From Acidimicrobiia bacterium (GTDB lineage Bacteria > Actinomycetota > Acidimicrobiia > Acidimicrobiales > Acidimicrobilacustridaceae), in the NCBI GenBank assembly GCA_020832495.1, contig JAFIEP010000120.1, positions 1 through 45,100 of the forward strand: 45,100 nt of DNA, read 5' to 3'. The position numbers and the translations under genes were made by a program. Under the pieces are notes generated by a model that was not told the origin of the DNA, did no database searches, and worked only from the letters and a program-made list of their open reading frames with translations. Position 1 is the stretch's first letter, and each line of letters begins with the position of its first letter. Below, piece after piece: positions 25,922 to 36,536 of the stretch.

Positions 25922-27025
25922 TCATCCGATCACCGATGCCGGGTCGACCCGCCAGACACGCCGAGCCGACAACAGGCTGCCGACCACTGACATGATGACC
26001 AGCCCCACACCGGTGCTGACGGCCCGTTCCAATGACAGGTCGAACGGCACGGCGCCGGCCAGGACGCCCGACGCCGCCAGGATGGCCCCAAGGCCGAGGG
26101 CGAACGCAACCAGGGCCACCACCACGGCCTGGGTGACGAGCGAGGCCACCACGCCAAGGTTCGATGAACCGAGCGCCTTCAGTACGCCGTAGAGCCCGGT
26201 GCGTTCGATGGTGATCAGGGCGAAGAACAGCGCCGCCACCACACCCACCACCACAAAGGTGGCGCCGATGACGATGCCGAAGGTGCCCTCTTGGTCCTCC
26301 ACGCCCGGCAGGGCAGCGATGGCGTCGTCGATGGTGAGCGTGGAGGTGGACCCGGTGGCGTCGTCGACCCGGGCCGCCACCACGTCGGGGTCGACACCGT
26401 CGGCGGTGCGCACCAGCGCTGCTTGGAACACCCCCGGCGCCATGGCCAGGTCGGGGCGAGCCGCCGCCAGCACCTGCTCGTAGGTCTCGGGTGACACCCA
26501 GACGCCGGGCTGCAGCAGGTAGCTGGTGTCGTCGACCGCCCCGACCACCTCGACCTCGAGTTGTTCGGGACCGATCGCCACGACGTCACCCACCGACGCG
26601 CCGAGGCTCGAGTCGACGTAGGCCTCCCCGACCGGCGGCGGGTCGGGGACCTCGGTGGCGGACAGTTCGTAGCCGACGACGGCCACGCTCTCCACCTCGT
26701 CGGTGCGGGGCTGGCCGTCGGCGTCGAGCACTCGGGCGCCCACCTGGGCCACGCCGAGCCCACCAACGGCGGATACTCCCTCCACGTCGCCGATGGCGGC
26801 GATGGTGGCCGGGTCGAGCCGGGACCGCACGAGCGAAGCGCGGGCGTCATCGGAGTAGACGATGAGTTCGGCCGACTGGGCACGTAGCAGACCGGTGGAC
26901 CCGCCGATCAGGCCGTCGAGCAGGCCCCCGAGGAAGATGAGCAGGAGCGTGAGGAAGGCCAGCGCCCCGCCGGCCACGCCGAACTGTCCTGGTCGGCGAC
27001 GCAACTCGAGCAAGCCGAGCTTCAC
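25922..27025 (-). CDS. FtsX-like ABC permease 1
   Basis: 367-residue permease of the MacB/LolC/FtsX type. One N-terminal membrane segment (about 16-40), a long extracytoplasmic domain (about 45-240) and three C-terminal segments make the standard four-helix layout. The N-terminus (KLGLLELRRRPGQFGV) aligns with that of the second permease, showing they are paralogues. It lies 34 bases after that gene and before the ATPase. No membrane-fusion partner is present next to it. Confidence 0.9.
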   Translation of the reverse strand: MKLGLLELRRRPGQFGVAGGALAFLTLLLIFLGGLLDGLIGGSTGLLRAQSAELIVYSDDARASLVRSRLDPATIAAIGDVEGVSAVGGLGVAQVGARVLDADGQPRTDEVESVAVVGYELSATEVPDPPPVGEAYVDSSLGASVGDVVAIGPEQLEVEVVGAVDDTSYLLQPGVWVSPETYEQVLAAARPDLAMAPGVFQAALVRTADGVDPDVVAARVDDATGSTSTLTIDDAIAALPGVEDQEGTFGIVIGATFVVVGVVAALFFALITIERTGLYGVLKALGSSNLGVVASLVTQAVVVALVAFALGLGAILAASGVLAGAVPFDLSLERAVSTGVGLVIMSVVGSLLSARRVWRVDPASVIG

Positions 27026-27059
27026 GAGGTCACCTCCAGCGGGATGGGGCGGTGCAGGC

Positions 27060-28187
27060 TCATGCCAGGCCTCCGAGTGAGGGCCGGGCCACGGCGTCGG
27101 TCGGGTCGACCTGCAGCAGACGCCGGAGCGCCAACAGCGACCCCACGCCGGCCACGGCCACCACCAGCCCGAGCGTGGCCGCCACCTCGAGCGGCTCGAT
27201 GCTCAGCGGGAGGGCGTCGCCCACCCCCTGGGCGGCCAACAGCACCAGCCCGGTGCCGATCACCGCTCCGATGCCCACCACCAGCGCCACCTGCAGGTAC
27301 AACCCGGTGACCAGTTCCCGCATGGGAATGCCGACGGCTCGCAACAGCGACAACGCCGCCGACTTCTGCACGGTGAGGATGAGGAAGAAGAAGGCCAACA
27401 CCAGCCCGACCACCACGTAGGCCAGCGACAAGATGAGCAGGAACGAGGTGCGGACCTCGGCCACGCCAGGGGTCTCGGCCACCGCATCGGACCGGGTCAA
27501 CGCGTCGGTGCCCTCGACCGCAGCCGAGATGTCGACGGCCACCGCCGCTGGTTCCTCGCCGGCCTCGGTGGCCACCGCCACCAGTGACGGGAACACCATC
27601 GGCGCGTCGGGCTCTGCGGCCTCGACCACCTCGACGTACCCCTCCCAGGTGAGCCACAACGTCGGCGAGACGCTGAAGCGGCTGCGGTCGGTGAGCCCGA
27701 CCACCGTCACCTCCGCGCCGCCGGGCTCCACCGTCACGGTGGCGCCCAACCCGAAGCCGTCGGCGGCGTCCTCCCGGCTGGCCGCCGCCTCACCGGGGGA
27801 CGCCGGGAGCCGACCCTCCACCAGCGCGGTGGGCTCGCCCGGTCCGCCGGGCACGAAGCCGAACACTGATCCGTCCACCAGTTCGCCGTTGGCCGACAAG
27901 GTGGTGGTCCGCTCGCCGAGCGGTGCCGCGGCCGCCACGCCCGGCACGGCACCGACCGCCTCGACCACCTCAGGGGACAGGATGGACCCAGCCACGCTGC
28001 GGCGGGCGTCCTCGCTGTACACCACAACATCAGCCGACTGCCGTTCCAAGGCGCCGGTGAAGCTCTCGAGCAGCGAACCGAGCAGCACTTGTTGGAACAG
28101 GATCAGGAAAACCAGCAGCCCCACGGCGCCACCGAGAAGGCCGAAGCGGAGCTTGGCTCGTCGAATCTCGCGGAGGCTGAGGCGCAC
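27060..28187 (-). CDS. FtsX-like ABC permease 2
   Basis: 375-residue paralogue of permease 1 with the same four-helix layout. The start at GTG 28187 (RLSLREIRRAKLRFGLL) is chosen because it aligns exactly with the start of permease 1; the frame stays open to a GTG at 28226 that would add 13 residues. It is the first gene of the transporter operon. The 220-base region to the divergent ATP-grasp gene should hold both promoters; a possible -10 (GACAAT near 28318-28323) faces the ATP-grasp side but no convincing -35 was seen. Confidence 0.88.
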   Translation of the reverse strand: MRLSLREIRRAKLRFGLLGGAVGLLVFLILFQQVLLGSLLESFTGALERQSADVVVYSEDARRSVAGSILSPEVVEAVGAVPGVAAAAPLGERTTTLSANGELVDGSVFGFVPGGPGEPTALVEGRLPASPGEAAASREDAADGFGLGATVTVEPGGAEVTVVGLTDRSRFSVSPTLWLTWEGYVEVVEAAEPDAPMVFPSLVAVATEAGEEPAAVAVDISAAVEGTDALTRSDAVAETPGVAEVRTSFLLILSLAYVVVGLVLAFFFLILTVQKSAALSLLRAVGIPMRELVTGLYLQVALVVGIGAVIGTGLVLLAAQGVGDALPLSIEPLEVAATLGLVVAVAGVGSLLALRRLLQVDPTDAVARPSLGGLA

Positions 28188-28407
28188 TCGGCCGAGCCTA
28201 CGAACACCGATGCGGGATTCAAACACCGTTCACCAATGATGGCCGCTGGAGCAGGTCACGACCGGGGCGTTCATGGTCGGGTCATCTTTCCGAAATGCAG
28301 CCGACGTCGTCATCGGTGACAATGAGGTGCGACGATCGGGACCGCGCGCAGCAGGTGCCGAGCAACGTGCGTCGTGCCGAGCCGACCAGACCGACCCGAA
28401 GGACCCC

Positions 28408-29847
28408 ATGGACTGGGACCACTACGACCCCACCGTCACCTACGACGAGTTCCTGACCACCGAGGGCACACCCCGGCAGGCGCTCAGCGGGGTGGCCGAC
28501 TTCCTGGGCACGCTCGATGCCAACGAGTTGCTGCGCCGCCAGGAGGCTGCCGAGGCGGCCATGGCGGCCATGGGCATCACCTTCACCGTCTACGACGAGA
28601 ACAGCAACATCGACCGCACCTGGCCCTTCGACGTCGTGCCCCGGGTGATCCCAGCCGCCGAGTGGCGCCAGGTCCGGCGGGGGCTGGAGCAGCGTCTGGC
28701 CGCGCTCAACCACTTCATCGACGACATCTACGGCGACGGGAAAATCCTGGCCGACAAGGTCGTCCCCCGTGAACTCATCGAGGGCTCACCGAACTTCCGG
28801 GCCGAGTGCGTCGGTGCCGAGCCGGCCTTCGGGGTGTGGGCCCACATCTGCGGGTCGGATCTGGTACGCGACGCCGACGGCACCATGTACGTCCTCGAGG
28901 ACAACCTGCGGGTACCGAGCGGCGTGTCGTACATGCTCGAGAACCGCTTGGTGACCAAGCGGGTCTTCCCCGAACTGTTCCGCAACCTCGACATCCAACC
29001 CGTCGACGACTACCCGTCGCGGCTGTTCGACCTGTTGGCCTCGCTCAGCGCACATCCCGACGACACCGTGACCGCTGCGGTGCTCACCCCCGGCGTCTAC
29101 AACTCGGCCTACTTCGAACACGCCTTCCTGGCCCAGCAGATGGGCGTCGAGCTGGTGGAGGGCCCCGACCTGTTCGTCGAGGACGACACGCTGTTCATGC
29201 GCACCATCCACGGCCCGGCCAAGGTGGACGTGCTCTACCGTCGGGTCGACGACCTCTTCATCGACCCCGACGTGTTCGTCCCCGAGTCCGTGCTCGGCGT
29301 CCGCGGCCTCATGCGTGCCTGGCGGGCGGGCAACGTGGCCATCGCCAACGCACCCGGGGCGGGCGTGGCCGATGACAAGGTCGTCTACACCTACGTGCCC
29401 GACATGATCCGCTACTACCTGGGTGAGGAACCCCTCGTCCCCAACGTGCCCACCTTCCGTTGCGACGAGCCGGCTGAGCTGTCCCACGTGCTGGCCAACC
29501 TCGGTGACCTGGTGGTGAAGCCGGCGAACGAGTCCGGCGGCTACGGGGTCTTCGTCGGCCCGGCGTCCACCGTCGCCGAGCAGGAAGAGGTGGCCGCCAA
29601 GATCAAGGAGGATCCTCGGAACTGGATCGGCCAACCCACCCTGGCCCTGTCCACCGCCCCGACGCTGTGCGACGGTCGTCTGGAGCCACGCCACATCGAC
29701 CTCCGGCCGTTCATCTTGACGGGCAACGACAGCTATGTCACCCACGGCGGGCTCACGCGGGTCGCCCTGCGTGAGGGCTCGCTGGTGGTCAACAGCTCCC
29801 AGGGCGGCGGCAGCAAGGACACCTGGATCCTCGAGGAGGACGCGTGA
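28408..29847 (+). CDS. circularly permuted ATP-grasp protein (DUF404/DUF407), stand-alone copy
   Basis: 479-residue member of the circularly permuted type 2 ATP-grasp family, predicted to form amide or peptide bonds at the expense of ATP. Key stretches look intact: VLEDNLRVPSGVSY (162-175, with the acidic/Asn metal residues), VVKPANESGGYG (369-380, Lys plus Gly loop) and SSQGGGSKDTW (463-473). YFEHAFLAQQMG (235-246) and LYRRVDDLFIDP are conserved with its paralogue. The start ATG at 28408 has GAAGGA upstream. It overlaps the alpha-E gene by GTGA and heads a five-gene unit with alpha-E and transglutaminase partners, the standard family neighbourhood. The substrate is unknown. Confidence 0.92.
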   Translation: MDWDHYDPTVTYDEFLTTEGTPRQALSGVADFLGTLDANELLRRQEAAEAAMAAMGITFTVYDENSNIDRTWPFDVVPRVIPAAEWRQVRRGLEQRLAALNHFIDDIYGDGKILADKVVPRELIEGSPNFRAECVGAEPAFGVWAHICGSDLVRDADGTMYVLEDNLRVPSGVSYMLENRLVTKRVFPELFRNLDIQPVDDYPSRLFDLLASLSAHPDDTVTAAVLTPGVYNSAYFEHAFLAQQMGVELVEGPDLFVEDDTLFMRTIHGPAKVDVLYRRVDDLFIDPDVFVPESVLGVRGLMRAWRAGNVAIANAPGAGVADDKVVYTYVPDMIRYYLGEEPLVPNVPTFRCDEPAELSHVLANLGDLVVKPANESGGYGVFVGPASTVAEQEEVAAKIKEDPRNWIGQPTLALSTAPTLCDGRLEPRHIDLRPFILTGNDSYVTHGGLTRVALREGSLVVNSSQGGGSKDTWILEEDA

Positions 29848-30863
29848 GCTCCACCGACACCCTGCTGCTCAGCCGTCTGGCCGAGGCCGTCTTCTGGACC
29901 GGTCGCTACCTCGAGCGAGCCGAGTGCACCGCCCGCCTGGTGCAGGCCCACACCGAGCTGTTCTTGGACCTGCCCCGTTCGGTGGGGCTCACCTTCGTGC
30001 CGCTGTTGGCCCTCACCGGCAGCGAGGACGTGTTCACCGAGCTCGGCGGTGCACCCACCGAGGAGAACGTGGTGGCGCACCTGGTGGCCGAACCGTCCAA
30101 CCCCAGCTCGATCGTGGCCAGCCTCACCGCCGCCCGCGACAACATGCGCACCACCCGCCAGCTGTTCCCCCGCGAGTCGTGGGAGTCCATCAACCTGCTC
30201 CACCTGTGGGCCACCGCCCAGGCGGAGGAGTGCACGAACCGTACGGTGCGCACGGGCTGGCTCACCGCCGTGTCCCGCGAGGTGCAACAGCTCACCGGCC
30301 TGCTCGCCGGGGCGATGAGCCACGACGAGACCTACGTGTTCCTCCGTCTCGGTCGTCACCTCGAGCGCGCCGACATGACCACCCGCGTCCTCGACGTGCG
30401 CGCCACCACCCTGCTGGCCGTGCGCGACGACGCCCTGCGTCCCTACGCCGACGTCCAGTGGGTGAGCGTGCTGCGGTCGCTCAGCGCCTACCAGATGTAC
30501 CGGCGCAAGGTGCACGCCCGGGTGCAAGGGCCCGAGGTGCTGCGTTTCCTCCTCCAGGACGAGCAGTTCCCTCGTTCGGTGCGGCACTGCCTCACCCAGA
30601 TCGGCACGGCACTCCCCGACCTACCCCGCCACGAGGTGCCATTGGCCACGTCGGTCGACGCCCTCGAGCACGTCACCACCGCCGAGGTGCGAGCGCTGGC
30701 CTGGGACGGCCTCCACGAGTTCGTCGACGACCTCCAGGGGCGGCTGGCCGCCATCCACGATGCCGTGGACGAGACGTGGTTCCGCCCCGAGGACTCGACG
30801 CCGGCCGACGCGGTGGACGGCCAGCCCCTCGACGACACCGCCGCGGCCGGCGCCACAGTGTGA
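29844..30863 (+). CDS. alpha-E domain protein (DUF403), stand-alone copy
   Basis: 339-residue all-helical alpha-E protein, the constant partner of circularly permuted ATP-grasps. The signature is at the N-terminus: SRLAEAVFWTGRYLERAE (about 10-27). A second pattern is YVFLRLGRHLERADMTTRVLD (about residues 165-185). No catalytic motif is known; a helper or substrate-binding role is assumed from gene fusions. It overlaps both neighbours by four bases (GTGA), so the three genes are tightly coupled. Confidence 0.92.
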   Translation: MSSTDTLLLSRLAEAVFWTGRYLERAECTARLVQAHTELFLDLPRSVGLTFVPLLALTGSEDVFTELGGAPTEENVVAHLVAEPSNPSSIVASLTAARDNMRTTRQLFPRESWESINLLHLWATAQAEECTNRTVRTGWLTAVSREVQQLTGLLAGAMSHDETYVFLRLGRHLERADMTTRVLDVRATTLLAVRDDALRPYADVQWVSVLRSLSAYQMYRRKVHARVQGPEVLRFLLQDEQFPRSVRHCLTQIGTALPDLPRHEVPLATSVDALEHVTTAEVRALAWDGLHEFVDDLQGRLAAIHDAVDETWFRPEDSTPADAVDGQPLDDTAAAGATV

Positions 30864-31642
30864 CCGACGAGCCGCTGGCGACACCGCTGCTGGTCACCCA
30901 CGCCGTCGAGTACCGCTTCAACCCCCCGGCCCTCCTCGGTCCACATTGCCTGCGGCTGGTGCCCATGGTCGGCGAACCCACCATCGGTCGTTCCACCCTC
31001 ACCGTGGACCCTCGACCCCGCCGTCGACGCGACGTGACCACCTCCGATGGGGTCACCACCACCGAGGTGCGCTTCGACGGCCGCCTCGGCCTGCTGCGCG
31101 CGGAGGGCCGGTCCGCCGTCGACCCCACCGGCACCACGGGTACCACCGGCGCCCCGCCGACAACGGGCCGAGCGGACGTCGGATCCGAGGAAGCCGTGCG
31201 GGCCGCAGTGCAGTGCTGTGGCGAGGTGGCAGCCGAGATCCGCTACGTGGAGCGTCACGACCCCGAGCCGCGCTCCCTCGAGGACGTGATGGCCAGCGGC
31301 GAAGGCTCGTGCCGGGACATGGCCTGGATGGCGCACCACCGGCTGACCTCCGCCGGCTGGCGGTCGCGGGTGGTCACCGGTTGGCTCCTCCCCCACCGAC
31401 CCGCCGACGACCCGGTGTCGTGGTCGGGGTTGTTGCACGCCTGGGTGGACGTGGCCACGACCGACGGTCGCTGGGCGGGCATCGACCCCACGACCGCCGA
31501 GCCGACCGGTCCCCACCATGTCCGCCTGGCCTGTGGCACCGAGTCGACCGACGTTGACGTGGTGGTGGGCGCCACCTCACCGGCGGGCGTCACGGTGGCG
31601 TCGAGCATCACGGTCAGCAACGCAGCAGCCCGACCCGAGTGA
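30860..31642 (+). CDS. transglutaminase-like protease 1 of the ATP-grasp cluster
   Basis: 260-residue protein with the bacterial transglutaminase N-terminal strand region followed by the papain-like core. The triad is C151 (GEGSCRDMAWM), H193 (LLHAWVDV) and D209 (GIDPTT). Residues ~92-105 are a low-complexity Thr/Gly/Pro insertion absent from its paralogue. Such enzymes beside ATP-grasps are predicted to cleave or transfer peptide bonds of the product. The start GTG at 30860 overlaps the alpha-E stop. The open frame extends far upstream but is antisense noise there. Confidence 0.88.
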   Translation: MTDEPLATPLLVTHAVEYRFNPPALLGPHCLRLVPMVGEPTIGRSTLTVDPRPRRRRDVTTSDGVTTTEVRFDGRLGLLRAEGRSAVDPTGTTGTTGAPPTTGRADVGSEEAVRAAVQCCGEVAAEIRYVERHDPEPRSLEDVMASGEGSCRDMAWMAHHRLTSAGWRSRVVTGWLLPHRPADDPVSWSGLLHAWVDVATTDGRWAGIDPTTAEPTGPHHVRLACGTESTDVDVVVGATSPAGVTVASSITVSNAAARPE

Positions 31643-31715
31643 CGGCAGTGAGGGCACTACCCTGGCAGGTGCCCCGTGTCCGACGGGCTGCCCGACCCCA
31701 CCGGAACCTCCCTGC

Positions 31716-34292
31716 ATGAGCGTCACCCCCGCTGCCCGCAGCACCTTGCTCAGCGCCTACCGTCCCCACACCGCCGGCTGGGACGAAATGGTCGACGCCG
31801 ACGGTGTGGTGCGCCCCCATTGGGCCTACCTGGCCGGCGCGCTCGATGCGCTGGGCCTCGACGAGCTACGCGAACGGCACGCAGAAGTCGATCGCCTGCT
31901 GCGCGACGACGGTGTGGCCCGCCACCTCCACGACGATCCCGACCGCTTCGACGACCCCTGGCCGCTCGATCCGGTACCGTTGGTGTTGCCCAGCGACGCC
32001 TGGTCGAGCATCGAACGAGGGCTGGCCCAGCGGGCCGAACTTTTCTCCCATCTGCTCGCCGACCTCTACGGCCCCCGCCAACTCCTCAGCCGCGGCGTCG
32101 TCCCACCCGAGGTGGTGGTGGGCCATCGGGGCTTCCTCCGGCACTGCGACGGCATGCACCTCCCCGGCAGCGCCCAGCTCCCCGTCTACGGCGCTGACCT
32201 CATCCGTGACCCCGACGGTACGGTGCTGGTCCTCGAGGACCTGGCCCAGGCGCCCACTGGCTTCGGCTACGGGCTCGAGAGTCGCTCGGTGCTGTCGCGG
32301 GTCTTCCCCAGCGTCTACCGCGACGCGCAGGTCCACGGTCTCGACGGCTTCTTCCGTGCCCTGCGCATGAGCCTGGCCGATAATGCCCCTGATGGCGTCG
32401 ACGACCCGACGGTGGTCATCCTCACCCCCGGGCGCCTGAGCCAGTCCTACTTCGAGCATGCCTACCTGGCCACCATCCTGGGCTGCCCACTGGTGGAGGG
32501 CACCGACCTCAGCGTGCGCGACGGCCAAGTGTGGCTGCGAGCCCTCGGAGGCCTGGAGCCGGTCCACGTCATCCTGCGCCGTGTCGACGGCTGGTACTGC
32601 GACCCACTCGAGCTACGCCCGGACTCCCAGCTGGGGGTACCCGGACTGCTCGACACCGCTCGGCGGGGGAACGTCTCGGTGGTGAACCCCGTCGGGGCAG
32701 CCGTGCTCGAGAACGCGGCGCTGGCCCGCTACCTACCCGACATCGCCCGGGCGCTGCTCGGCGAGGACCTGCTCCTCGACTCCGTCGAGGCCTGGTGGTG
32801 CGGCGACGACACCCAGCGCTCCCACGTGCTGGCCAACCTCGACTCGCTCGTGGTGCGCCCGCTGGCACCCCGTCCGTCCACCCCTCCGGTGGCCGGCTGG
32901 GAACGTTCGGCGAGCGACCTCGACGCCCTCCGGGCCCAGATCGCAGCCGATCCCTACCGTTGGGTCGGCCAGGCCCCCGCCGAGCCGTCCGCCGCCCCCA
33001 CCTTCACCCGTGCCGGCCTCGAAGCCCAGCCGTGCATCGTGCGCAGCTTCGCCGTCGGCCGCTCCGGCTCGTGGGTCCCCATGCCCGGCGGGCTGGCCCG
33101 AGCGGTGGACACCCCCATTTCGAGCGGTGTCGGCGTCCCGGTGAACAAGGACGTGTGGGTCCTGGCGTCAGAACCCGAGATGGTGGCCGGCACCTGGATG
33201 CCCGACGCCCCGCTGCGCGTCAGCACCGAGACGGCCGGGGCCGTGCCGTCACGCGCGGCGGAGAACCTGTTCTGGATGGGCCGCTACTCCGAGCGCGCCG
33301 AGGTGAGCATCCGACTCCTGCGGTCGATCCTCGATCGCCGTGCCACCCAGCCGGGTGGACCCGACCACGCTGCCGATGCGGCCATGGCGGTGCTGATGGG
33401 CGCCCTGTGGCAGCTCACCGGCGTGGTGCCACCCCTCGACGCCGGAGAGATCGGCACGCTCGACGCACCCGACGACGCCGCCGCCCTGCGCGCCGTGCTC
33501 CTCGACGGTGACCAGCCGGGCAGCCTGACGTCCAACCTCCGGGCCTTCCTCAACGCCGCCAACACGGTGCGCGACCAGCTGTCGAGCGACACGTGGCTGG
33601 CAGTGTCGAACATCGAGGGTGACCTCCGCCTGCTGCGTTCACCCATCGACCCCGACGCTGCTGCGCAGGTGGCCATCGCCCGTGTGCTCAAGAGCCTGCT
33701 GGCGGTGAGTGGCCTGGTCATGGAGTCCATGGTGCGCGACGCCGGGTGGTACTTCCTCGACGCCGGCCGGCGCATCGAACGAGCCCTCGGGCTGTTGCGC
33801 CTCTTGCGCGCCACCATCGTCCACCCGGCCGAGACGGCGGCGCAGGCGTTGGTGGTCGAGTCGGTGCTGGAGGCCAGCGAGAGCATCATCACCTACCGGC
33901 GCCGCTACCGCTCCCACGCCCGCACGGACACCCTCCTCGAGCTCCTTCTGGCCGATCCCACCAACCCGCGCTCGCTCGCCTACCAGCTCGACTCACTCAC
34001 CACCGACGTCGACGGCATGCCCCGGGTGCGCCGAACCCGCCTCGACGGCGACCAGCGGCTGGTGCTCGAAGCCGGCACCCGGCTGCGCCTGACCGACCCG
34101 GCGACGCTCGCCGCCGTGGACGACACCGGCCGCCACGCTGCGCTGGAGGACTTCCTCACCTCGTCGATCGAGTCCCTCGAAGCCATCGCCAGCGCGGTCG
34201 ACGCCCAGCACTTCACCCACCTGCACCGCGGCCACATGCTCGTCGGCGAGGCGCACGTCGTGCCCGACATGCTCGAGACGGTGCTGCCGTGA
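31716..34292 (+). CDS. ATP-grasp / alpha-E fusion protein with degenerate ATP-grasp half
   Basis: 858-residue fusion. Residues 1-500 match the stand-alone ATP-grasp along their length (YFEHAYLATILG at 245-256, RRVDGWYCDPLELR). Residues ~510-858 are an alpha-E domain (SRAAENLFWMGRYSERAE, 512-529). The ATP-grasp motifs are lost: EDNLRVPSG becomes EDLAQAPTG (174-182), VVKPANESGGYG becomes VVRPLAPRPSTP (379-390), and QGGGSKDTW becomes SGVGVPVNKDVW (470-481). ATP hydrolysis is therefore doubtful. Known family members with this fusion may share these changes, so it may be a subfamily trait. It lies 73 bases after transglutaminase 1, with only a weak GGAA as ribosome site. Confidence 0.88.
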   Translation: MSVTPAARSTLLSAYRPHTAGWDEMVDADGVVRPHWAYLAGALDALGLDELRERHAEVDRLLRDDGVARHLHDDPDRFDDPWPLDPVPLVLPSDAWSSIERGLAQRAELFSHLLADLYGPRQLLSRGVVPPEVVVGHRGFLRHCDGMHLPGSAQLPVYGADLIRDPDGTVLVLEDLAQAPTGFGYGLESRSVLSRVFPSVYRDAQVHGLDGFFRALRMSLADNAPDGVDDPTVVILTPGRLSQSYFEHAYLATILGCPLVEGTDLSVRDGQVWLRALGGLEPVHVILRRVDGWYCDPLELRPDSQLGVPGLLDTARRGNVSVVNPVGAAVLENAALARYLPDIARALLGEDLLLDSVEAWWCGDDTQRSHVLANLDSLVVRPLAPRPSTPPVAGWERSASDLDALRAQIAADPYRWVGQAPAEPSAAPTFTRAGLEAQPCIVRSFAVGRSGSWVPMPGGLARAVDTPISSGVGVPVNKDVWVLASEPEMVAGTWMPDAPLRVSTETAGAVPSRAAENLFWMGRYSERAEVSIRLLRSILDRRATQPGGPDHAADAAMAVLMGALWQLTGVVPPLDAGEIGTLDAPDDAAALRAVLLDGDQPGSLTSNLRAFLNAANTVRDQLSSDTWLAVSNIEGDLRLLRSPIDPDAAAQVAIARVLKSLLAVSGLVMESMVRDAGWYFLDAGRRIERALGLLRLLRATIVHPAETAAQALVVESVLEASESIITYRRRYRSHARTDTLLELLLADPTNPRSLAYQLDSLTTDVDGMPRVRRTRLDGDQRLVLEAGTRLRLTDPATLAAVDDTGRHAALEDFLTSSIESLEAIASAVDAQHFTHLHRGHMLVGEAHVVPDMLETVLP

Positions 34293-34335
34293 GCGCGGTC
34301 GACGACCACCGCGCCGGCGCGTCATCGGGGGTCCG

Positions 34336-35211
34336 ATGAGCTTCCACATCACCCACCGCACCCGGTACCGCTACAAGAGCAACGTGGTCACCGGCTACAG
34401 CGAGGCTCGACTGCTCCCACGCGACCAACCCGACCAGGCCGTGCGCTCCGCCACGCTCGAGGTGCGCCCCACGCCGTCGGACGTGCGTGAGCACCGGGAC
34501 TACTTCGGCAACCGGGTCACGTTCTTCTCCGTGCACGAGCCCCACGACGAACTGGAGGTCACGGCCGTCTCGGAGGTCGACGTCGTCCACGGCGATCCGC
34601 CGTTCAACCTCCTCGGCCCCTCCTGGGACGAGGCCGTGCACCACCTCCGATCCGACGAGGCACCCGACCTGCTCGAGGCCCGCGAGTTCCGACTCGACTC
34701 GCCGCTCGTGCGCCGGTCCGCCGCCCTCGCCGACTACGCCCGTCCGTCGTTCCCGCCGAACCGACCTTTGGTGGAGTGCGTGGTGGATCTGTCGAACCGG
34801 GTACACACCGACTTCGTCTACGACCCCACCGCCACCACCATCGGCACCAGGATCGACGAGCTCCTCGCGCTCCGCCGCGGTGTCTGCCAGGACTTCGCCC
34901 ACGTCATGATCGGGTGCCTTCGCTCACTCGGCCTCGCCGCCCGCTACACCAGCGGCTACCTCGAGACCCACCCACCTCCGGGACAACCCCGACAGGTCGG
35001 CGCCGACGCCTCCCACGCCTGGGTGGGAGTGCTGGTGCCCGACGTGGGCTGGGTGGACGTGGACCCCACCAACGACGTGTTGGTCTCCGACCGCCACACC
35101 ACGCTGGCGTGGGGGCGGGACTTCACCGACGTGACACCGCTCAAGGGCGTCGTGTTCGCCGGTGGGGGCGCGCAGGAACTCAGCGTCGAGGTGGACGTCG
35201 TCCGGGCCTGA
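34336..35211 (+). CDS. transglutaminase-like protease 2 of the ATP-grasp cluster
   Basis: 291-residue transglutaminase-like protein with the N-terminal bacterial transglutaminase domain (HITHRTRYRYKSNV) and core. The triad is C184 (RRGVCQDFAHVM), H227 (ASHAWVGV) and D243 (VDVDPTND). It is closer to the standard ATP-grasp-linked form than paralogue 1. It starts 43 bases after the fusion gene with GGGGG before the ATG. Its stop is only two bases from the end of the convergent M23 peptidase gene. Confidence 0.92.
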   Translation: MSFHITHRTRYRYKSNVVTGYSEARLLPRDQPDQAVRSATLEVRPTPSDVREHRDYFGNRVTFFSVHEPHDELEVTAVSEVDVVHGDPPFNLLGPSWDEAVHHLRSDEAPDLLEAREFRLDSPLVRRSAALADYARPSFPPNRPLVECVVDLSNRVHTDFVYDPTATTIGTRIDELLALRRGVCQDFAHVMIGCLRSLGLAARYTSGYLETHPPPGQPRQVGADASHAWVGVLVPDVGWVDVDPTNDVLVSDRHTTLAWGRDFTDVTPLKGVVFAGGGAQELSVEVDVVRA

Positions 35212-35213
35212 AC

Positions 35214-36536
35214 TCAGCGCAGGTAGGGCATGGGGTCCACCGCCACCCCGTTGACCCTCACCTCGAAGTGCAGGTGCGGTCCGGTGGAGAACCCGGTGCT
35301 GCCCACATAGCCGATCACCTGCCCGCGGCTGACCGAACCCCCGGTGACGGCGAACGAGCTCTGGTGGGCGTACGCCGTGACCTTGCCGTCGTGGTGGTCG
35401 ATGAGGGTGAGCAACCCGTAGCCGCCCATGTTCCCTGCGAAGAACACCGTGCCGCCGGCCGCCGCCACGATGGGCTGACCGGTGGGTGCGGCGATGTCGA
35501 TGCCCTGGTGCAAACGGCCCCACCGGAATCCGTACGGTGAGCTGACCGGCCCCGCCGTCGGCCACGCCAGGCCACCCCCCGAAGGTGCCGTGGTCGGGGG
35601 TGCGGTCGGCGGGGTCGTGGTGGGCGGGTTGGTCGGCGGATTGGTGGGTGGATTCGTCGGGGACGGCCCGGGCGAGCCGCCCGCAGGCGTCGTCGTGGTC
35701 GGCGCAACGGTGGTCGGCGCTGCGGTGGTCGAGGTCGTGGTCGGCGCCACCGTCGTCGTGGTGGTGGTGACCGCCGCACGGCGCTGCGCGATGAGCTGGG
35801 CCAGTTGCGCTTCGTCGGCGGCGAGGGCGTCGGCTTCCTGCTGGAACGCCTCGATCCGCAGCTCCAGGGCGGCCTGGACGTCGACCTGACGCTCCCGACG
35901 CTCACGGAGGCTGGCCAGATCTGCCTCCTGACCGGCTCGGGCGGCGCGCAGTTCGGCCTCGGCGTCGGCCACCTCGTCGCTCGTCCTGCGGAGATCCTCA
36001 CCCAGACGACGCTGGCCCTCGATGAGCTGGCGATCCGCCGCCGCCACCGAGTTGAGGAGCGCAAAGCGTCGATCGACCTCGTTGAACTCCGACGCAGCGA
36101 ACACCACGGCCACGTTGTCGAGCGACGGCTGCACGTAGGCGGCCACGGCCCGCTCGGCCACCAGCTCCCGCTGCCGCTCGAGCGTCCGGGTCACCTCCGC
36201 CTGCTCTCGCTGCAAGCGGTCGAGATCCGCCTCGAGCACCACGAGCTGGCGACTGGTCATCTCCGTGCGGCGGTCCAGCTCGGCGATCTCACCCTCGAGG
36301 CGGTTCGCCTCCGCACGCAGCTCGACGTCGGAGCGTCGGAGCAGCTCGAGCTGGCCCTCGACCTCTGACCGGCGCGACCGGGTCTGGTTGCGCTCGCGCG
36401 CCTCCTCGTCGGTCAGGAACTCGCCCGGCGCGCCCGACGAGCCGTTGGCCGGCTCGGGGTCGGCAGCGGCGGGCAGCGCCATCGCCAGGAGCGAGAGGGC
36501 GAGCAGAGCAGCGGAGGTGAGTCGAGAAGCGCGCAT
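35214..36536 (-). CDS. secreted coiled-coil M23 (LytM) peptidase
   Basis: 440-residue exported protein. The signal peptide (MRASRLTSAALLALSLLAMA, cleavage near AAA-D) is followed by a long coiled coil (about 40-255, rich in Glu/Arg/Ala/Leu), then a Thr/Pro linker (about 257-325, TTTTTT and NPPT repeats), then a LytM domain. Metal ligands are in HQGIDIAAP (about 343-351) and GPHLHFE (about 420-426). The build matches EnvC/NlpD/RipA-like proteins that cut or regulate cutting of peptidoglycan at division. An Asn-Pro-Pro-Thr tandem in the linker is repeated three times. It ends two bases from transglutaminase 2. Confidence 0.93.
   Translation of the reverse strand: MRASRLTSAALLALSLLAMALPAAADPEPANGSSGAPGEFLTDEEARERNQTRSRRSEVEGQLELLRRSDVELRAEANRLEGEIAELDRRTEMTSRQLVVLEADLDRLQREQAEVTRTLERQRELVAERAVAAYVQPSLDNVAVVFAASEFNEVDRRFALLNSVAAADRQLIEGQRRLGEDLRRTSDEVADAEAELRAARAGQEADLASLRERRERQVDVQAALELRIEAFQQEADALAADEAQLAQLIAQRRAAVTTTTTTVAPTTTSTTAAPTTVAPTTTTPAGGSPGPSPTNPPTNPPTNPPTTTPPTAPPTTAPSGGGLAWPTAGPVSSPYGFRWGRLHQGIDIAAPTGQPIVAAAGGTVFFAGNMGGYGLLTLIDHHDGKVTAYAHQSSFAVTGGSVSRGQVIGYVGSTGFSTGPHLHFEVRVNGVAVDPMPYLR

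Follow-up and report, generated by a model that had tools for sequence, protein, structure and literature searches.

The ATP-grasp/Alpha-E/transglutaminase cluster

In the window, which is the whole stretch of 45,100 nucleotides from an Acidimicrobiia bacterium that we analysed, five genes of the plus strand form one cluster (28408 to 35211) encoding, in this order, an ATP-grasp protein, an Alpha-E protein, a transglutaminase-like protein (TGase), an ATP-grasp/Alpha-E fusion and a second TGase. The ATP-grasp domain is found twice in this cluster. A first-pass annotation of this DNA had proposed that the ATP-grasp half of the fusion looks catalytically dead and may be a regulatory or substrate-holding pseudoenzyme, paired with the active copy encoded upstream.

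The stand-alone circularly permuted ATP-grasp protein, P0001 (28408..29847), matches Pfam PF14403 with 537 bits and is a close homologue of PDB 3n6x (518 bits). The end of its gene is overlapped by 4 bases by the start of the gene for the stand-alone Alpha-E protein P0002 (29844..30863; PF04168, 270.5 bits), and transglutaminase-like protein 1 comes next (30860..31642; Transglut_core, 42 bits; Bact_transglu_N, 33 bits), with C/H/D-type motifs that can be recognized by eye (GSCRDMA, LHAWVD and GIDPT). The fusion, P0003 (31716..34292), has CP_ATPgrasp_1, CP_ATPgrasp_2 and Alpha-E matches: it consists of an ATP-grasp half (residues 1-500; 31716..33215), which we call degenerate on the basis of a residue tally and whose fold is retained in the model, and of an Alpha-E half (residues ~501-858; 33216..34292; PF04168, 238 bits). 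Directly downstream of the fusion lies the gene for P0004, transglutaminase-like protein 2 (34336..35211; Bact_transglu_N, 95.5 bits; Transglut_core, 70 bits). The two ATP-grasp genes are separated by 1.87 kb (29847 to 31716) and not by the 1.4 kb that the first-pass annotation had given. On the minus strand, two adjoining, similar-looking ORFs (25922-28226) resemble FtsX/MacB-type ABC transporter permeases and one ORF (35214-36536) resembles a coiled-coil protein ending in an M23-type metallopeptidase domain, both by eye.

P0001 and P0003 both pass Pfam CP_ATPgrasp_1 and _2. P0003 is a member of the CP_ATPgrasp family (PF14403/PF04174) by descent, with 449 and 343 bits against cut-offs of 32 and 23.1, and the ATP-grasp parts of the two proteins are 35% identical over 478 columns. 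We described the ATP site by eight canonical positions, given here in P0001 numbering: D151, E164, N166, K324, K371, G377, G378 and G380. We take D151, E164 and N166 to be metal ligands and K324, K371 and the glycine loop to be ATP ligands, by the roles of the corresponding residues in E. coli glutathionylspermidine synthetase (gss), in which the motif order is the same: D318, E330-Y-N332, K498 and K533-P followed by a Gly-rich stretch, with D151, E164-D-N166, K324 and K371-P followed by S-G-G-Y-G as the counterparts by motif in P0001. The correspondence is based on the order of the motifs and on these ligand roles, as no match was obtained when our ATP-grasp alignments were compared as profiles with the one E. 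coli gss sequence.

While P0001 carries all eight canonical residues, P0003 keeps two of them, D161 and E174, and has L176, A334, R381, P387, S388 and P390 at the other six positions. Its Asp/Glu/Asn set of metal ligands is therefore incomplete, with L176 in place of the Asn, and the two ATP lysines and the glycine-rich loop are gone. The motif strings that had been quoted for the two proteins are all present, namely EDNLRVPSG, VVKPANESGG and QGGGSKDTW in P0001 and EDLAQAPTG, VVRPLAPRPS, YFEHAYLA and SGVGVPVNKDVW in P0003. The site is indeed degenerate, but the loss that had been described for the first and third motifs was overstated: the first is only partly changed, since the metal Glu is kept (E174) while the Asn became Leu, and the third keeps K478, D479 and W481, its change being limited to the Gly-rich part. 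The retention of E174 is atypical, as this Glu is kept in only 3/131 fusions of the clade described below.

To place these changes among the others, we used the 105 invariant positions, defined as those with the same residue in 57 or all of the 58 stand-alone copies. P0003 shares 63 of them, in agreement with the earlier statement that the scaffold between the motifs is preserved, and its modelled fold agrees as well (see below). Within the three motifs, 8 positions are kept and 12 lost, compared to 55 and 30 elsewhere, which is not significant alone (Fisher p = 0.07), and a wider site that was defined post hoc gives 12 kept and 20 lost, compared to 51 and 22 elsewhere (p = 0.0025). The strong evidence for the loss of the site is the clade-wide tally rather than this single pair of proteins.

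Loss of the canonical site throughout the fusion clade

The residue tally draws on relatives up to the same order, on 80 contigs of several phyla, and on spreads of 246 actinobacterial and 200 Pseudomonadota genomes. The 80 multi-phylum loci are the best 80 of 525 related stretches obtained with two peptide patterns built from fusions, so that this sample favours typical fusions; the two genome samples, for which typically 3 to 4 candidates per genome were scored, are less biased. Among the 200 Pseudomonadota genomes, 112 have a match, and residues were read for 34 fusions (one of them the L048 protein again) out of 62 genomes picked from among the matches listed. Five duplicates were removed before the tally (L005 is on the same contig as L083, and L185 is L048); for the same reason, the sets of 88 and 95 fusions used below each hold one duplicate. 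Five short stand-alone pieces were dropped from one alignment. The clade fusions counted here are all those that were read, their membership being taken from trees for subsets and from profile scores for the 34 Pseudomonadota ones, of which 34/34 score higher with the fusion profile.

All eight canonical residues are found in 110/110 distinct unfused copies, 9 of which come from genomes without a fusion among the order-level relatives. On the other side, 131/131 clade fusions (127 typical and 4 divergent) keep four canonical residues or fewer: none in 1, one in 45, two in 48, three in 33 and four in 4. The two groups show zero overlap in this count, and the comparison of many fusions with stand-alone copies that the first-pass annotation had suggested thus sets 131/131 degenerate sites against 110/110 intact ones. 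N166 is kept in 0/131 fusions and is replaced by Arg (100), His (12), Trp (6), Leu (6) or others (7), while E164 is kept in 3/131. K324, invariant among stand-alone copies and replaced by A334 in P0003, a loss that the first-pass annotation had overlooked, is a Lys in 1/131. This tally rules out that the changes are private to the window copy. A pseudogene is also ruled out, as the reading frame is uninterrupted both in the window and in those relatives that were read (long open frames in all 131 clade fusions) and about half of the invariant positions persist.

The four divergent fusions (L028, L174, L175 and L176, from genomes G030, G211, G243 and G201) form a branch of the clade that lacks the segment with the lysine and the glycine loop, and PF14403 matches L174 and L176 only to positions 256 and 272 of 374. 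Their genomes also hold a stand-alone copy, which is intact where read (L019, L165, L170 and L251), and G201 has a typical fusion besides the divergent one.

Quick trees, built without bootstrap, place the fusions on one side of one branch with an SH-aLRT of 100 in each case: 88 fusions against 58 stand-alone copies in the first ATP-grasp tree, 45 fusions, the four divergent ones among them, against 55 others in the second, and 57 fusions including the 34 from Pseudomonadota against 32 stand-alone copies in the third, where long branches lead to L244, L246, L247 and L028. The same separation is seen for the fused Alpha-E domains, the exception being row L071, entered as a "stand-alone" Alpha-E protein but apparently the fused one read in another frame; since this apparent artefact was left in the alignment, the Alpha-E tree needs two changes.

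The first-pass annotation had considered that the changes may be shared by the whole fusion subfamily. This is the case for all clade fusions, but it does not extend to L172 and L173, two independent fusions of 737 and 736 residues from other actinobacterial genomes, which lie on the opposite side of the tree and keep 8/8 canonical residues. Fusion as such is therefore not equivalent to site loss, and it is ruled out as its cause. Each of these two proteins is the sole match in its own genome in the search of the actinobacterial sample, and Alpha-E is matched only in part, with 58 and 65 bits over model positions 6-163 and 6-164 of 294. Four further intact ATP-grasp copies were found in other architectures. 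Two of them, L178 (G175) and L179 (G072), lie behind a glutamate-cysteine-ligase-like GCS2 domain, which makes two ligase-type domains per protein.

What the fusion keeps and the company it is found in

Structure prediction for P0003 gave a mean pLDDT of 87.5, and the model of its ATP-grasp half aligns to 3n6x over 439 residues at 3.1 A with a Z of 40.5, indicating that the predicted fold of this half is retained. In the Alpha-E half, the ER positions E526/R527 and E688/R689 are intact, and they are conserved across 76 aligned rows (E526 and R527 in 75/76, with one gap each, E688 in 76/76 and R689 in 75/76), so that the core conserved among stand-alone Alpha-E proteins is also present in the fused half. 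A Foldseek search with the Alpha-E half returned generic helical proteins only (cytochrome bd, Z ~10). From the kept fold and the kept Alpha-E core, it follows that the clear loss within the fusion is that of the ATP site. P0003 falls under what is understood by a pseudoenzyme, since it is an enzyme homologue lacking residues that are thought essential and kept as an intact protein that is predicted to fold.

If only the Alpha-E half mattered, the ATP-grasp half could be a decaying passenger, as the preserved Alpha-E core and the partial loss of the ATP-grasp half in the divergent members might suggest. However, 54 of the 105 invariant positions persist in 80% or more of 95 fusions across phyla, and the full fold is modelled with confidence, which long decay would not leave; we thus see a mere passenger as very improbable.

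The other invariant positions show one dominant new residue (13), loss without a clear successor (13) or a mixed pattern (25) in these 95 fusions. The 13 new residues argue that not all changes are drift, as illustrated by R168 to Q (92/95), A234 to T (88/95) and D322 to E (87/95), and S233, found in 56/58 stand-alone copies, is E in 91/95 fusions. The commonest form of the fusion has Arg at the metal-Asn site together with a new conserved set (D-R-x-Q-A-P-S-G, E-T and K-D), and R433, K470 and D471 (P0001 numbering) are kept in 94/95. One could then imagine that the degenerate half has become an enzyme or binding protein of new specificity, with a chemistry of its own, whose pocket would still bind a nucleotide, an acyl phosphate or a peptide without Mg. 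Against this reading stand the 34 Pseudomonadota fusions, which often have H, L, Y or another residue in place of the Asn, a glycine loop that is hypervariable in fusions and absent in the four divergent members, and the window copy itself, which has Leu at the Asn site and Q and S at the E-T pair, and we consider it unlikely. Nucleotide or substrate binding by the degenerate half may still persist, because R433, K470 and D471 stay conserved, as do K371 (still Lys in 75/127 typical clade fusions) and D151 (113/127).

The genomes that carry a clade fusion nearly always encode a stand-alone copy as well. A further stand-alone-type PF14403 match was found in 49/50 fusion-bearing genomes drawn from the best 80 of 525 stretches, and in 69/70 of a second set made of the 62 Pseudomonadota picked from among the matches listed plus 8 Actinomycetota (G055 being in both sets). 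The same holds for all 12 recognisable fusion genomes of the 246-genome actinobacterial sample, 8 of which are also in the second set. In the searches of these 50 and 70 genomes, a second PF14403 match was not found in G044 and G481, which do have a fusion. The stand-alone copies that were read from a subset of fusion-bearing genomes are intact; the second copy of G078, left outside the tally, lies in a 923-residue frame without Alpha-E and is of the stand-alone type, with EDN. The reverse is not true, since 10/18 relatives with a match have a stand-alone copy and no fusion. Fusion and stand-alone genes can lie more than 1 megabase apart on one contig, as in G201 (2.00 versus 3.22 Mb) and G301 (1.59 versus 3.62 Mb), with the same megabase-scale separation in G237, G127 and G163, showing that their co-retention does not result from operon linkage only. 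Of the pairing that the first-pass annotation had proposed, it is this co-occurrence that is borne out. One record of the collection, titled a Bifidobacterium breve MAG (L034, CAMCUD010000021.1), belongs to a 5.0 Mb genome in which PF14403 matches four times, once below the cut-off, and its species label looks doubtful.

Other neighbours of the fusion also come into question as its partner. Among the loci from the best 80 of 525 stretches, a TGase gene directly follows the fusion in 65/70 testable cases, and in 34/50 testable ones a long frame (>880 residues) that includes a TGase is found upstream. All four of the long upstream proteins that were scanned (4/4) carry DUF2126, while the fifth protein scanned, L083, is short (373 residues) and has only the TGase. 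The true partner of the fusion could accordingly be a TGase-DUF2126 protein (transglutaminase/GS-like ligase) or the adjacent TGase instead of the intact ATP-grasp protein. Yet, DUF2126 was detected in 37/50 of the same fusion-bearing genomes, often in the neighbourhood of the fusion, compared to a second ATP-grasp in 49/50, and it was not found in the genome of the window (96.9% complete). This weakens the case for DUF2126 and leaves that for the adjacent TGase unaffected; taken together, we hold a partner of this kind for rather unlikely. In the window, the small TGase-like gene at 30860-31642 stands where many related loci have the long TGase frame (TGase-DUF2126 in the four scanned). The genome of the window has only two proteasome-family matches, side by side on another contig.

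A putative partner of the intact copy and its known relatives

The one-way association with a stand-alone copy, the kept fold and the kept Alpha-E core fit a non-catalytic partner. We thus propose that the fusion is probably a pseudoenzyme, most likely serving as the non-catalytic partner of the intact ATP-grasp amidoligase copy of the same genome, which here is encoded in the same cluster. According to this model, the fusion would go back to an ancient duplication of a circularly permuted ATP-grasp amidoligase and would have lost the standard Mg-ATP site (metal Asn, usually the Glu, first ATP lysine, glycine loop and often the second lysine), and the degenerate protein, which we infer from its sequence to be inactive, would not be expected to ligate by the standard mechanism. 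It would pair with the intact copy as a dead twin subunit, or present the Alpha-E domain and a substrate pocket to it. The intact copy would probably use ATP to activate a carboxylate and link it in an amide bond, and the transglutaminase-like proteins would transfer or trim the product. Against this partner model stand the polar residues that stay conserved in the degenerate half, the retention of two of three metal ligands in the window copy, the two genomes without a second PF14403 match (G044 and G481) and the fact that co-retention is no proof of contact.

A bolder and quite improbable extension of this model would make of the fusions a phylum-spanning pseudo-amidoligase family, in which the Mg-ATP site would have been rebuilt (commonly with Arg for a metal ligand and with new Gln, Glu and Thr) into a metal-free pocket. 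From the intact sister enzyme, this pocket would receive an activated or tagged product and hand it on to the Alpha-E and transglutaminase parts, the fusion being a dedicated acceptor or carrier subunit of a peptide-tagging machine.

A gene set of this type was reportedly named a predicted peptide-tagging system by Iyer et al. in 2009, and is said to comprise an ATP-grasp, an Alpha-E and a transglutaminase protein with, in some genomes, Anbu or a GS-like DUF2126 ligase. The window shares with it the ATP-grasp, Alpha-E and transglutaminase genes and differs from it in that DUF2126 was not found in its genome and that it has a second, degenerate ATP-grasp.

In the Anbu operon of Yersinia bercovieri, a related stand-alone ATP-grasp protein frees phosphate from ATP in vitro, ligation not being demonstrated there, and Anbu did not detectably interact in a specific manner with the partners from its operon (PMC6376114). 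This lack of partner interaction would count against the partner model, although the operon as described contains no fusion. Nitrate gives higher levels of an Anbu-type gene and of a CP-ATP-grasp gene than ammonium does in Pseudomonas putida (PMC8050072), and mutation of ntrC in Burkholderia cenocepacia lowers a cluster that includes DUF404/407, DUF403 and two transglutaminase-like genes (PMC5491218). The ATP-grasp/Alpha-E/transglutaminase gene set, widespread in bacteria, is thus linked to nitrogen limitation in two species, and we found no report of its product in the literature searched. The co-retention of a degenerate twin with an intact copy suggests a helper subunit in this poorly understood nitrogen-related pathway. 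A site that is degenerate across phyla, nearly always in a genome with an intact copy, turns a vague gene set into a testable complex, and the label "ATP-grasp ligases" probably misstates the chemistry of the clade fusions.

A divergent protein of the ATP-grasp family that is suspected to lack classic activity has also been described in humans, TTLL12 (PMC3520985). Like the fusion, it is a divergent ATP-grasp-type homologue kept as a protein, but it belongs to another subfamily and is eukaryotic. We know of no link between TTLL12 and Alpha-E.

For the circularly permuted family itself, the accessible open-licence literature yielded no statement on an inactive ATP-grasp, an earlier remark in the 2009 survey being possible. 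In a profile search of solved structures, 3n6x was the sole hit with a meaningful E-value, and the P0001 model likewise matches 3n6x; more distant matches are eukaryotic glutathione synthetases and E. coli glutathionylspermidine synthetase, the nearest folds with bound ligands. These last enzymes are active and have the full residue set, unlike the fusion. With 3n6x-type proteins (circularly permuted ATP-grasp, PF14403/PF04174), the fusion shares its family by sequence and by fold; the fusion clade differs from them by lacking the metal Asn, the first ATP lysine and the glycine loop, with the Glu nearly always missing too, and by having Alpha-E fused.
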